Assembly: GCA_017990865.1 (NCBI GenBank)
Contig: JAGNNB010000076.1
Location: 1 to 10,167 of the forward strand
Direction of reading: 5' to 3'
DNA: 10,167 bases
DNA from: Lysobacteraceae bacterium
Lineage (GTDB): Bacteria > Pseudomonadota > Gammaproteobacteria > Xanthomonadales > Xanthomonadaceae
Position numbers and translations under genes: made by a program
The notes under the pieces: generated by a model
Database searches by the model: none
Seen by the model: only the letters and a program-made list of their open reading frames with translations
Told to the model about the DNA's origin: nothing
In this document: positions 4,152-10,167 of the stretch, in pieces
Numbering within the stretch: position 1 is the stretch's first letter
Layout: the number at the start of each line of letters is the position of its first letter

Positions 4152-4249
4152 ATTGAGGGACCGACGATGTACCGCTAAACCATGGCCGTCCGCGTATGGC
4201 AGAGGTCATCGCCACCGCCGCCGAGCCCCCCACCGTTCAGGCCATCCCT

Positions 4250-4276
4250 GTCATCCCGAGCGCAGCGAGGGACCTG
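4250..4276 (+). repeat. 27-bp dispersed repeat, copy A
   Basis: Contains the core CGAGCGCAGCGAGGGA followed by CCTG. The same 27 bp occur at 4372-4398 and, inverted, at 4428-4454. Identity with the inverted copy extends 4 nt further (CTTC). The upstream context (CCATCCCTG) is also shared with copy B apart from one extra C. Confidence 0.9.
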
Positions 4277-4371
4277 CTTCGACACCGCTCGATGGCGTGG
4301 ATGTCGCAATAGTGGGTGTCCCAGATGCCCATCCCAGGCACCCGAGCCCGCCACCGCGTAGACCATCCCCT

Positions 4372-4398
4372 GTCATCCCGAGCGCAGCGAGGGACCTG
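4372..4398 (+). repeat. 27-bp dispersed repeat, copy B (left arm of the inverted pair)
   Basis: Exact direct repeat of copy A. With copy C it forms an inverted repeat of 27 perfect base pairs around a 29-nt spacer (4399-4427), which could fold as one long hairpin in RNA or single-stranded DNA. Confidence 0.9.
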
Positions 4399-4427
4399 TT
4401 TTACCTTCTGCTCCGGCGGTGAAGAAG

Positions 4428-4454
4428 CAGGTCCCTCGCTGCGCTCGGGATGAC
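4428..4454 (-). repeat. 27-bp dispersed repeat, copy C (inverted)
   Basis: Exact reverse complement of copies A and B. The B-C pair has the head-to-head layout common to REP-type elements, which are often mobilised by RAYT transposases; no such gene is present in this window. Confidence 0.9.
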
Positions 4455-4727
4455 AAGCTTCTTTCTGCCGCGCCTCACAACGCCGGCCCCGGAACAGCCC
4501 GCCATCGGTCCCGACAAGCCGCCACCTCTCCGCACCGTCCGTCGGCCGCCCGGCCCTCCCGCAGCGGCCGATTCTGAGATACACCGCACGCTTCGAGGGC
4601 TGCAGGGCCGCGTGAGCCGCGCTTTATCCCCGCATCGGGCCGCCCGCCGGCTCGGGTCGCGCCGGGGCCGCCCACCCCGAACGCCCAGCCGGCGGCGGAA
4701 ACGCGCTACCCTATTCGGCTCTCCGCC

Positions 4728-5787: not shown

Positions 5788-5821
5788 CCTCGCCCCCGCC
5801 CGTCGGGGGCGAGGCGTTTTT
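5788..5821 (+). terminator. Strong Rho-independent terminator after oleA
   Basis: A perfect 11-bp GC-rich stem (5788-5798 with 5804-5814) with a 5-nt loop, followed by CG and TTTTT (5817-5821). It sits 25 nt after the oleA stop and isolates oleA from the Fic gene. Confidence 0.92.
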
Positions 5822-5885
5822 GGGGTCTGCTCGCGCGACCGGCACAGGTTCGAAGCGGGGTGCGCGCCCGCAATCGCGTCGCGGA

Positions 5886-5912
5886 TTTTCTTTACCCGGC
5901 GCGAAAAGAAAA
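5886..5912. repeat. AT-rich inverted repeat in the Fic leader region
   Basis: TTTTCTTT (5886-5893) and AAAGAAAA (5905-5912) form an 8-bp all-but-one A:T stem around an 11-nt GC-rich loop, just upstream of a putative -35. It could be an operator or a weak hairpin; it may also be chance in an AT-rich patch. Confidence 0.3.
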
Positions 5913-5915
5913 ATA

Positions 5916-5944
5916 TTGCGATTTTTTTTCCTTGGTGGAATGAT
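5916..5944 (+). promoter_or_regulatory. Candidate promoter of the Fic/restriction-modification unit
   Basis: TTGCGA (5916-5921), a 17-nt spacer, then AATGAT (5939-5944), each matching the sigma-70 consensus at 4 of 6 bases. It lies in an AT-rich stretch with long T runs (5922-5929, 5954-5960), unlike the surrounding DNA, between the oleA terminator and the Fic start. Prediction by eye only. Confidence 0.35.
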
Positions 5945-5978
5945 CGGCGTCTATTTTTTTCATTCACGGGCGGTCGAT

Positions 5979-7199
5979 ATGCGCCCAGACGACTTCCACG
6001 CACCGCAAACCGGCCGCGTCATGCGCACGGCGCAGGGTTACTACGCCTTCGTCCCGGCGCCGCCTCCGCCGCCGATCGAGTACACGCAGCCGCTGGTTCG
6101 CCTGCTCTCGGCCGCCGACGCCGCCCTGAGCGAACTCTCCGGCATCGGCCGTTTGCTGCCGAATCCGTACCTGTTGATCGCTTCCTACGTCCGCCGTGAA
6201 GCCGTGCTGTCCTCGCGCATCGAAGGCACCCGCACCAGTCTGTCCGATCTGCTGGCCGACGAAGCCGGGCAACCGCCGCATGCGCCGCCCGACGACGTGC
6301 ACGAAGTTCGAAATTACGTCGAGGCCCTGGACTACGGCATCGAGCGCCTCGCCACCCTGCCGCTGTCGCTGCGGTTGGTGCGCGAAGTGCACGAACGCCT
6401 GATGCGCGGCGTGCGCGGCGACAGCGCCACGCCCGGCGAATTCCGCCGCAGCCAGAATTGGATCGGCCCGCACGGCAGCACCCCGGCCAACGCGCCGTAC
6501 GTGCCGCCGCCCCCGCAGGAGATGCTCGACGCATTGGCGGCATGGGAACTGTTCCTGCATCAGCGCGGCGAATTGCCCGATCTGGTGCAATGCGCGTTGA
6601 TGCACGAGCATTTCGAAGCCATCCATCCCTTTCTCGACGGCAACGGCCGCGTCGGCCGGTTGCTCATCACCCTGTTCCTGATCGAACGCGGGCGCTTGTC
6701 GCAGCCGTTGTTGTATCTGTCGGAATTCATCGAGCGCAACCGCGACGATTACTATCGCAGCCTGATGCGCATCCGCACCCACGGCGATTGGCTGGGCTGG
6801 TTGCACTACTTTCTGGCCGGCGTGGAATGGAGCGCACGTCGCGCCTTGCGGCAAGCGCAACAATTGCTGGCCTTGCGCGAACGCATGCGCAACGCACTCG
6901 CGCACGACCCGCGCGCCGCGGCGCTGGTGGACGCGCTGTTCGTCAACCCGTTCATCGACATCAAACGCGCGCAAGCGCTGCTGAGCGTCAGCGCCCCCAC
7001 CGCGCGCAAAACGCTCGCCGCGCTGGAAACCGCAGGCATGTTGCGTGCGCTGTCCGTCAGCGGCCGCGGCCGCGTCTATTTGGCCGACGCCGTCCTCGCC
7101 GCGATCGACGATCCGGGCGAGGAACGCGCGGTCGACGACTACGAATCGCAAGCGCCGGCCGATCGCAACGTCGGCACACCCCGCAAAGGACCGCCATGA
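5979..7199 (+). CDS. Fic family protein (probable AMP-transferase) with C-terminal winged helix
   Basis: A 406-residue protein from ATG 5979, where [14 protein letters not shown] fits Fic relatives as I recall them; in-frame ATGs at 5940 and 6021 are alternatives. Fic enzymes transfer AMP (sometimes another nucleotide group) to target hydroxyls. A Fic N-terminal domain (residues 35-90) carries [20 protein letters not shown] and the inhibitory motif SSRIEG, with Glu82 expected to block ATP binding. YVPPPPQEM (174-182) matches the segment before the Fic core. The catalytic motif [12 protein letters not shown] is intact (His216 to Arg227), so the enzyme should be active once de-inhibited. Residues 315-385 look like a winged helix ([23 protein letters not shown]), suggesting DNA binding and perhaps autoregulation. 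Five prolines in a row (28-32) may slow translation. The stop overlaps the next gene's ATG (ATGA), so the two are probably co-translated. Target unknown. Confidence 0.93.
7185..7190 (+). promoter_or_regulatory. Ribosome-binding site of the restriction-modification gene
   Basis: AAAGGA lies 5 nt before ATG 7196, inside the 3' end of the Fic gene. Together with the ATGA overlap it fixes the start and indicates coupled translation. Confidence 0.65.
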
Positions 7200-10167
7200 C
7201 CCCGCCCGACATCCGCGAGATCGCGCAGGACGATGCCGACAGCTTCATCGCCAAGTGGAGCGGTGTCGCCGCGTCGGAGTTATCCACGTCGCAGAGTTTT
7301 CTGATCGATCTGTGCCGTCTGCTCGGTGTGGATGCGCCGCATCCCACGCCCGAGCAGGACTACATGTTCGAGCGGCCCATCGTGTTCGCGCACGGCGACG
7401 GCAGCACCAGCGCCGGGCGCATCGATCTGTATCGCCGCGGCGCTTTCGTTCTCGAATCCAAGAAACTCAAAGCCGCCGCGCATACCCGCGGTTTCGACCA
7501 GGCGCTGCTGCGCGCGCGCAGTCAGGCCGAACAGTACGCCCGCGCGTTGCCGGCGGACGAAGGCCGGCCGCCGTTCGTGGTGGTGGTGGATGTCGGCAAT
7601 CGCATCGAGTTGTATGCCGAGTTCTCGCGCAGCGGCGGCACCTACACGCCGTTTCCCGACCCGCGCAGCCACCGCATCGCGCTCGCGGACTTGCGCGACG
7701 CAACGCTGCGCGAGCGCCTGCGCAGCGTCTGGACCGATCCGCTCGCGCTCGACCCCAGCCGCGAATCCGCGCGCGTCACCCGCGCCATCGCCGAACGACT
7801 CGCCGAGCTGGCGAAAAGTCTCGAAGCCGCCGGTCACGGCGCGGAGCAAGTCGCGCAGTTCCTGATGCGCTGCCTGTTCACCATGTTCGCCGAGGACGTG
7901 CGTCTGCTGCCGAAGGACAGTTTCCGCGACCTGTTGATCCGCTACGAACAACAGCCCGACGTGGCGATGCGCATGTTGGCGCAGTTGTGGCGCGACATGG
8001 ACAACGGCGGTTTCTCCGCGGCCATCGCCAGCGACGTGCTGCAGTTCAACGGCAAGTTGTTCAAGCAACCCGACGCGCTGCCGCTGGACAAAGCGCAACT
8101 GGAATTGTTGATTCTGGCCGCGAAAGCCGATTGGAAACACGTCGAACCGGCGATCTTCGGCACGCTGTTGGAACGCGCGCTCAGCGCGAAGGACCGGCAC
8201 AAGCTCGGTGCGCACTACACGCCGCGCGCTTACGTCGAACGTTTGGTGTTGCCGACGGTGATCGAACCGTTGCGCACCGAATGGCGCGATGCGCAGGCCG
8301 CCGCGATGGTGCTGGACGCCGACGACCGTCACGACGAGGCCGTCGCCGAGTTGCGGCGTTTCCATCATCGTCTGTGCACCGTGCGCGTGCTCGACCCGGC
8401 CTGCGGCAGCGGCAATTTTCTGTACGTCACGCTGGAACATCTCAAGCGCCTGGAAGGCGAAGTGCTGAACGCGCTGGACGAACTGGGCGACCGCCAGACC
8501 GGCCTTGCGCTGGCGGGTGAACGCGCCGATGCAGCCGCGGGCGAAACCGTGGACCCGCACAATCTGTTGGGCATCGAACTCAACCCGCGCGCCGCGGCCA
8601 TCGCCGAAGTGGTGCTGTGGATCGGTTATCTGCAGTGGCATTTCCGCACCCGCGGCGACGTGAACCCGCCGATTCCCGTGGTGCGCGATTTCCGCAACAT
8701 CGAATGCCGCGACGCGGTGCTGGCCTACGACCGCATGGAATACGTGCTGGACGAACGCGGCGTGCCGGTCACGCGTTGGGACGGCGAGACCATGAAAGTC
8801 TCGCCCATCACCGGCGAGAAGATTCCCGACGACACTGCGCGCAAGCCGGTGGAGCGCTACATCAACCCGCGCAAGGCCGCATGGCCGGACGCGGATTTCG
8901 TGGTGGGGAATCCGCCGTTTATCGGCAATAAGCGGATGCGGACCGCGCTGGGCGACGGTTATGTCGATGCCTTGCGCGACACATGGACCGATGTGCCCGA
9001 GTCAGCCGATGTCGTGATGTACTGGTGGCATCACGCCGCGTTGCTGACGCGTCGCGGCGCGCTGGAACGGTTCGGTCTGATCACCACCAATTCGATTCGA
9101 CAGGCCTTCAATCGCCGCGTGATCGAAGCGGCGATGGCGCCGCCGAGCGTGAAGGCCGCCGCTCTTCCCCCCTCTCCCACCGGGAGAGGGGCCGGGGGTG
9201 AGGGTCCGGCCAAGCGAGCATCATCAATGGCAGACACACCCTCATCCGGCGCTGCGCGCCACCTTCTCCCGGGGGGAGAAGGAAAAGCGCAGGCGCTGTC
9301 GCTGGTGTTCGCGATTCCGGATCATCCGTGGGTGGATATCGCCGACGGTGCGGCGGTACGGATTGCGATGACGGTGGCGCAAGCGGGTCATGCGATCGCC
9401 GTGTTGCGCGAAGTCGTCGATGAGCGCGATACCGGCGAGGATGAGATCGCGGTGACGCTTTACGAGAAGCGCGGCGTCATGCATGCCGATTTGAAGGTCG
9501 GCGCGAACGTCGCTAGCGCACTGCCCCTGCGCGCGAACTCGCTACTGAGCAATCGAGGCGTGATCCCCCACGGCGAAGGCATGACCGTCACCGAAGAACA
9601 GGCGACTGCGCTCGGTCTCGGGCGAGTGCCGGGACTCGAACGTCGACTGCGGCTATATCGCAACGGCCGTGATCTCACGCAAATGCCACGTAACGTCCGC
9701 GTGATCGACATGTTCGGGTTGTCAGCCGAGCAATCGCGCGAGCAGTTTCCCGAGATTTATCAGTGGTTGCTGGAACGAGTGAAGCCGGAGCGCGATGAGA
9801 ATCCAAGAGCTTCAAGGCGCGAGAATTGGTGGCTCTTTGGGGAAAATCAGCCAAAAATGCGCGCGGCATGTGCTGGACTAAAGCGCTTTCTAGCGACGGT
9901 TCAAACCAGCAAGCATCGATTCTTCACGTTCCTCGATGCCGATATCCTTCCCGACGACAAACTGATCGTCATCGGTCACGAAGATGCGTGGCTGCTTGGC
10001 GTCTTGTCTTCACAAATTCATATCGAGTGGGCGCTAGCTACTGGTGCGCGGCTTGGAGTCGGGAATGATCCCGTTTATAACAAGAGCTCCTGTTTCGAAC
10101 GCTTTCCATTTCCAGCCAAAACTGACAACGCGCATCGCATCCAAACTTTCGCCGAACAACTCGACAC
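7196..10167 (+). CDS. MmeI-like single-chain restriction-modification enzyme (type IIG/IIL), 3' end outside the window
   Basis: Continuously open from ATG 7196 to the window end: 990 residues, no stop. Order: a nuclease-like N-terminus with Asp77-X9-Glu87-Ser-Lys89 ([17 protein letters not shown]), the same spacing as MmeI D70/E80/K82; a helical spacer (about 180-350, ending [16 protein letters not shown]); the methyltransferase with motif [12 protein letters not shown] (399-409) and motif IV NPPF (572-575), typical of adenine-N6 methylation; then a specificity/C-terminal region ([50 protein letters not shown]). Such enzymes methylate one strand of their site and cut at a distance using SAM. 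A palindromic repeat lies in frame at residues 656-698. The last 350 nt are lower in G+C. A methyltransferase-only or DISARM DrmMI-like role is the alternative, but the intact D-EXK favours a full enzyme. The C-terminus cannot be judged. Confidence 0.9.
9161..9289. repeat. Palindromic repeat element inserted in frame in the restriction-modification gene
   Basis: Two hairpins delimit the element. The first has perfect 10-bp arms (9169-9178 with 9182-9191, 3-nt loop ACC); the second has perfect 9-bp arms (9262-9270 with 9274-9282, 3-nt loop GGG). Between them TGAGGGT (9199-9205) is complementary to ACCCTCA (9238-9244), giving a nested, cruciform-like structure. The gene frame stays open across it, encoding about 43 Pro/Gly/Ala/Ser-rich residues ([13 protein letters not shown]... 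to ...[11 protein letters not shown]). The flanks rejoin conserved-looking protein (NRRVIEAAM before, [14 protein letters not shown] after). The exact insertion points cannot be fixed without an uninterrupted homologue. Confidence 0.8.

Follow-up and report, generated by a model that had tools for sequence, protein, structure and literature searches.

An in-frame palindromic repeat in an MmeI-type restriction-modification gene lies at a loop that receives many repeat types

Palindromic repeats that are translated as part of proteins are best known from Rickettsia, and intragenic REPs have been recorded in several other bacteria (PMC3733652). The RPEs are dispersed palindromic repeats of ∼150 bp that are inserted, with the frame kept, into protein genes unrelated to one another and encode a conserved peptide (PMC10969869, PMC3733652). 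REPs within genes, coding for 20–82 amino acids, have been reported in several species (PMC3733652, PMC8266576, PMC6006769), and REPs have also been linked to RAYTs (PMC8266576, PMC6006769). In the parts of the open-licence literature covered here, we found no work that links DUF559 to dispersed repeats or describes an insertion hotspot in MmeI.

The DNA analysed, termed the window, is a stretch of 10,167 nt from a Lysobacteraceae bacterium. It ends within a gene whose product combines, in one chain, an N-terminal nuclease, a helical spacer, a gamma methyltransferase with the NPPF motif and a target recognition domain (Pfam MmeI_N, MmeI_hel, MmeI_Mtase and MmeI_TRD, all above their cut-offs), the composition of MmeI-type IIL/IIG enzymes; PADLOC assigns it to REase_MTase_IIG (E 0). 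The domain order is the same as that of MmeI (PDB 5HR4), which differs in having no insert at the equivalent site. Directly upstream of the MmeI-type gene, and overlapping it, is a Fic-family gene (window 5820–7199; PADLOC SoFic) with a match to the NCBIfam Fic adenylyltransferase model under its cut-off, and the two genes may form a defence pair. Another repeat, TGTCATCCCGAGCGCAGCGAGGGACCTG, occurs in three copies in window 4246–4455, one of them inverted.

The preliminary description had placed two strong hairpins within the open frame of the MmeI-type gene. Both perfect stems are present where it put them, and the frame is open throughout the element (Table 1). Judged by eye, the order is hairpin, tail, core, tail, hairpin, with the two tails facing each other. 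The 129-nt element strand has a folding energy of −72 kcal/mol (z = −4.45, with 1 of 200 shuffles equally good), and its minimum-energy fold pairs the two halves together rather than forming two separate hairpins. In the window copy, four of the six reading frames are open; special selection for stop-free frames was rejected as an explanation, as G+C-rich sequence has few stops anyway (hand estimate). A structured RNA was also considered and rejected, there being no Rfam match at the gathering score in the window, L371, L372, L250 or L226.

Table 1. Positions of the MmeI-type gene and of the parts of the palindromic element in the window
Feature	Position	Strand	Details	Basis or remark
MmeI-type (type IIL/IIG) restriction-modification gene	7196..10167	+		3′ end missing: contig stops
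Two-hairpin dispersed repeat	9161..9289	+	In frame, residues 656–698	Fold, genome matches, other genomes
Left hairpin	9169..9191	+	C-rich/G-rich 10-bp perfect stem, 3-nt loop; arms 9169–9178 / 9182–9191	By eye
G-rich tail of left unit	9192..9207	+		Sequence
Tail of inverted right unit and small hairpin	9237..9260	−	Tail 9237–9247, then small hairpin 9248–9260	By eye
Right hairpin	9262..9282	−	9-bp perfect stem, 3-nt loop; arms 9262–9270 / 9274–9282; outer end of inverted right unit	By eye

A 141-nt query (9155–9295) was compared with the organism's own 3.45-Mb draft genome, and 40 of the 61 candidates were scored. At least 36 matches to the element were found, itself included; most span one half of it, and most fall on the right-hairpin half. 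Of the 59 genomes searched, 35 (own included) gave matches, and in several genera there were copies of nearly full length. The element had been taken for a dispersed palindromic repeat, and the other copies in the host genome and elsewhere bear this out; nor did homologues carry the same peptide encoded by unrelated nucleotide sequence.

Reading frames were checked at 30 of the 36 own-genome matches. Within this genome the element is also read in frame, flanked on each side by Pfam domains, in ValS (L002), in an E2 acyltransferase (L005) and in a methylmalonyl-CoA-mutase-type gene (L028); the L005 and L028 copies correspond to one half of the element. In relatives it is in frame in E2 (L034) and HrpB (L042). 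For three further open frames (L014, L029 and L030), Pfam domains on both sides were not found. The element is, like the RPEs, a palindromic repeat with further copies in its genome that is inserted in frame in several unrelated genes with a shared peptide, and the comparison with RPEs made in the preliminary description stands. The likeness is one of behaviour. The insert differs from RPEs in its hosts (Lysobacteraceae and others), in the recurrence of many repeat types at one loop and in the inverted pairs found at a nuclease gene. By analogy, it appears to work like an RPE, and we do not file it as one.

To place the insert within its protein family, we aligned 239 proteins, of which 127 were locus ORFs and 112 came from databases, with a bias towards close relatives of the window protein in the latter. 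The insert lies in the loop preceding the strand that leads to IPDHPW. Among the 226 rows with readable flanks, this loop has at least 30 residues in 57 (the window's own row included), 20–29 in five and fewer in 164; after merging of rows at least 98.5% alike, loops of at least 30 residues remain in 53 of 218. The closest homologue (P0002, 84% identical) shares the insert. Among the 120 listed homologues, by contrast, the loop is just 14–15 residues long in 72, so that insert-free relatives exist, and it reaches 156 residues at its longest. A contig-specific insert or assembly artefact was rejected, as P0002, P0003, P0005 and others also carry it. The preliminary description was right as to the reality of the insert, with the correction that the insertion is neither unique to this gene copy nor confined to one repeat family; the recurrence of many repeat types at this site and the association with DUF559 described below went beyond it. 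The window's genome has a second MmeI-type gene (L193, G000:C55:1-1725), which contains one internal TAA and, in the corresponding loop, a gap of 114 nt.

Eight insert types were assigned by peptide: A (the window type), R (Rhodanobacter), B (RRDDG), C (PPxGN), D (VRAELVEA; L102, a Rhodocyclales MAG), E (GGTETR; L128), F (PPFQGG; L203) and G (SLAADSAE; L110). Types A, R and F are similar in layout, with C-rich hairpins. Type C inserts, with PPxGNxVxLxF-like peptides, are known from protein only (P0012, P0039, P0072, P0099 and P0119). The insert DNA of five non-window cases was searched against the genome of origin, with counts that take in the insert and, for some of them, its inverse match to itself. 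There were ten matches for L102, nine for L110 and 99 for L203, while the Rhodanobacter type gave 69 in one genome and 75 in another; for L128 the own-genome search gave none besides the insert itself.

Fold z-scores of −3 or lower were obtained for 13 of 22 insert rows (two of the rows repeat a gene), compared with 2.3% of 132 control segments; folding of the remaining 9 was not unusually good. A list of repeat-peptide motifs, drawn up after examples had been seen, was matched by 50 of 54 inserts at this loop compared with 5 of 50 at residue 935, the other position rich in large inserts. The loop at residue 935 was rejected as an equal hotspot on this count, as was the loop at residues 1049–1059, where 10 of 23 inserts fit the list and several are DUF559 fusions. 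The MmeI loop before the IPDHPW strand is an insertion hotspot for many repeat types.

The effect of the insertions on the reading frame was assessed with tblastn, independently of gene calling. Both flanks of the loop lie in one frame at all 118 distinct DNA loci where both were found, loci that are not fully independent of one another, and among them the frame is kept at all 18 whose gap measures at least 60 nt. Such frame keeping fits selection for an active enzyme. An AlphaFold2 model from 109 aligned sequences (mean pLDDT 86.3) replaced a model from 38 sequences that was too poor (pLDDT 56.8). In the newer model, residues 653–694 form the only long stretch with pLDDT below 50 (the others being 1–3 and 436–441), situated between a helix at 636–647 and a strand at 701–712. 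In a profile alignment with MmeI (5HR4), the insert falls between about residue 556 and residue 557, just before the segment bearing Trp570. This tryptophan helps to box the flipped adenine in MmeI (PMC4833311). The earlier proposal that the insert is tolerated in a loop is supported by the insert-free homologues, by the frame kept in all gapped loci and by the disorder predicted for the loop.

We consider it probable that the element is a non-autonomous two-hairpin repeat, in frame in an MmeI-type gene and tolerated in a disordered loop that is a recurrent landing site. A repeat built of hairpin, tail, short core, inverted tail and inverted hairpin would have entered the gene in frame. It would persist in a disordered loop between helix 636–647 and the strand leading to the adenine-boxing tryptophan, with the methyltransferase fold unspoiled; the enzyme is presumably active and the insert neutral. 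Selection for an active enzyme would spare insertions that keep the frame and remove the others, and in this way repeats of many types may have come to land repeatedly in this loop.

The distribution of insert types could also reflect few insertions, with block exchange of the specificity half having spread and reshuffled the inserts among related genes. Where pairs are at least 90% alike over residues 20–560, 181 of 196 (pairs that are not independent) fall below 72% downstream, and the change points in identity cluster near residues 580 and 683, flanking the insert loop. These clusters look as if specificity halves had been swapped at NPPF and at a conserved block (P0006 numbering). Recombination swaps blocks around the loop, and part of the difference in inserts between sisters comes from such exchange rather than from new insertions. 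The tree of residues 585–683 nevertheless still requires 38 changes of type and 18 between insert and no insert, and types D, E, F and G each stand alone in distant lineages; exchange with few insertions seems rather unlikely as the whole account. A FastTree phylogeny of the N-terminal-to-methyltransferase part required at least 26 insert/no-insert changes and 39 changes of type; for the downstream part (690–925) the counts were 38 and 49. On these sequence comparisons, repeated insertion and block exchange both act.

Retention of the insert for a function, whether through hairpins that adjust how strongly a toxic enzyme is expressed or through a loop that alters specificity or cleavage, would agree with the strong palindromes. 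It would also agree with the nearest local neighbours of the 59 carriers, which are of the same type in 30 cases, of another type in 22 and without insert in seven, so that 52 have a carrier as nearest local relative and some insert persists while its type changes. We nonetheless judge it improbable, given that inserts of different types, left hairpins read in three frames and loops of widely differing length (up to 156 residues) occur alike, that the window protein and P0002 match at only 30 of 44 insert positions (hand count) against 84% overall, that the loop is predicted to be disordered and that the element is also found in housekeeping genes. Far less probable still is an ordinary variation in length of a low-complexity loop, passed down with the gene, the repeat likeness being a by-product of high G+C content. 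The inserts of L073, L090, L100 and L104, linker-like and without strong hairpins, would suit that explanation. It is contradicted for the window insert by the genome copies and runs against the multi-copy matches for five types, the tandem copies of the whole peptide unit (two in P0003, three in P0004) and nearest local neighbours that are 85–97% identical yet of different insert type.

DUF559 (PF04480) domains are present in 8 of the 120 listed MmeI-type homologues (P0010, P0013, P0032, P0040, P0048, P0082, P0092 and P0102), and were confirmed in P0032 and P0040 at residues about 1151–1263. The fusions looked at are in frame near residue 1058, several of them adjoining a repeat peptide. Because of these domains we searched for DUF559 genes, and found them in 22 of 35 genomes, own included. 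At 17 of 27 DUF559 loci an inverted pair lies within 300 bp on both sides and outscores the 99th percentile in each of two control sets (29.7 and 37.0); the highest control, 65.4, was a position within DUF559 loci themselves. Class-wide, the flanking pair exceeded the threshold of 32.6 (99th percentile of 1000 random positions) at 58 of 90 DUF559 loci, compared with 2 of 323 called genes in control regions (2 of 75 when restricted to 90–200 amino acids), and 57 passing loci are spread over 42 of 65 genomes. At the other 32 loci a strong flanking pair was not found, and the highest random position, 75.4, was exceeded by just 8 of the 90. With a unit definition made after examples had been seen, a unit lies within 250 bp of 87 of 117 DUF559 loci versus 1 of 328 genes.

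One of the two DUF559 genes in the window's genome (L250) is flanked by an inverted pair of hairpin-plus-tail units, and the left unit of the insert matches the repeat at a DUF559 gene of this genome at 89% over 47 nt; for the other (L230), a strong flanking pair was not found. In G860, too, one repeat family occurs both within an MmeI gene and around DUF559, making two genomes with this arrangement. Eight DUF559 loci were chosen from plasmid records, and strong pairs are present at 4 of them and absent at the other 4. On pSymB of S. meliloti the pair measures 114 nt (96%), and in L371 (Ak57 pSymB, 820–1540) the DUF559 gene stands between nearly identical inverted two-hairpin repeats. The RIME elements of Sinorhizobium are intergenic repeats with two palindromes, and we take the L371 flanks to resemble them. 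In Deinococcus psychrotolerans the unit lies between paaD and paaZ and has inverted ends of 71 nt (93%); at this position Deinococcus sp. QL22 has no annotated gene. Judged as a possible MITE, a class defined by terminal inverted repeats with a target-site duplication, the window element shows inverted halves, with no clean empty site found for the window insert and no duplication established. Caulobacter VsrA, called a Vsr-like endonuclease with a proposed role in mismatch repair, shares its Pfam domain with the flanked DUF559 genes, and the part of its description covered here mentions no link to repeats (PMC12907096).

The arrangement is like that of REP/BIME/REPIN sequences and RAYTs in its paired inverted hairpin units, its dispersed copies and an enzyme gene bordered by units. 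It is unlike them in that the bordering gene encodes DUF559 (PD-(D/E)XK, Vsr-like) rather than a Y1 HuH transposase, and in that the element has a G-rich tail without a GTAG-type foot; GTAG and CTAC are both absent from the window copy, the only one counted. We regard DUF559 as a strong lead for the mover, and there is close to an even chance, with doubt slightly the heavier, that this small nuclease spreads the repeat class. The DUF559 unit would do so with its gene between inverted units, as RAYT genes lie among REPs. An equally tentative extension is a new REP-like mobile system of Gammaproteobacteria, Alphaproteobacteria and Deinococcus, in which DUF559 between inverted units of C-rich hairpin and G-rich tail would spread two-hairpin non-autonomous copies; in-frame landings would decorate proteins, the MmeI loop would serve as a docking site and DUF559 would sometimes become fused C-terminally. 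Somewhat less probable, though a serious contender, is that the repeats are moved by a different enzyme, for instance a RAYT (TnpA-REP) transposase, the DUF559 genes being passengers or merely situated in repeat-rich places. The published tie between REPs and RAYTs (PMC8266576, PMC6006769) speaks for it, as does the presence in the own genome of at least 36 repeat matches for two DUF559 genes, one of them flanked. Weighing on the other side are the excess of inverted pairs at DUF559 loci over control genes, the recurrence of such pairs in the three groups with differing repeat sequences, the lack of GTAG or CTAC in the window element and the finding that, among 59 loci selected for repeats, the sole inverted pair enclosing 250–1300 bp holds a DUF559 gene.

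Many bacteria have acquired insertions, of many repeat types, in a single loop of a defence enzyme, and this amounts to a natural experiment on which places in a protein tolerate foreign peptide. If DUF559 does spread these repeats, the mover of a widespread G+C-rich class of palindromic repeats would be identified, and a testable role would fall to a domain of unknown function.
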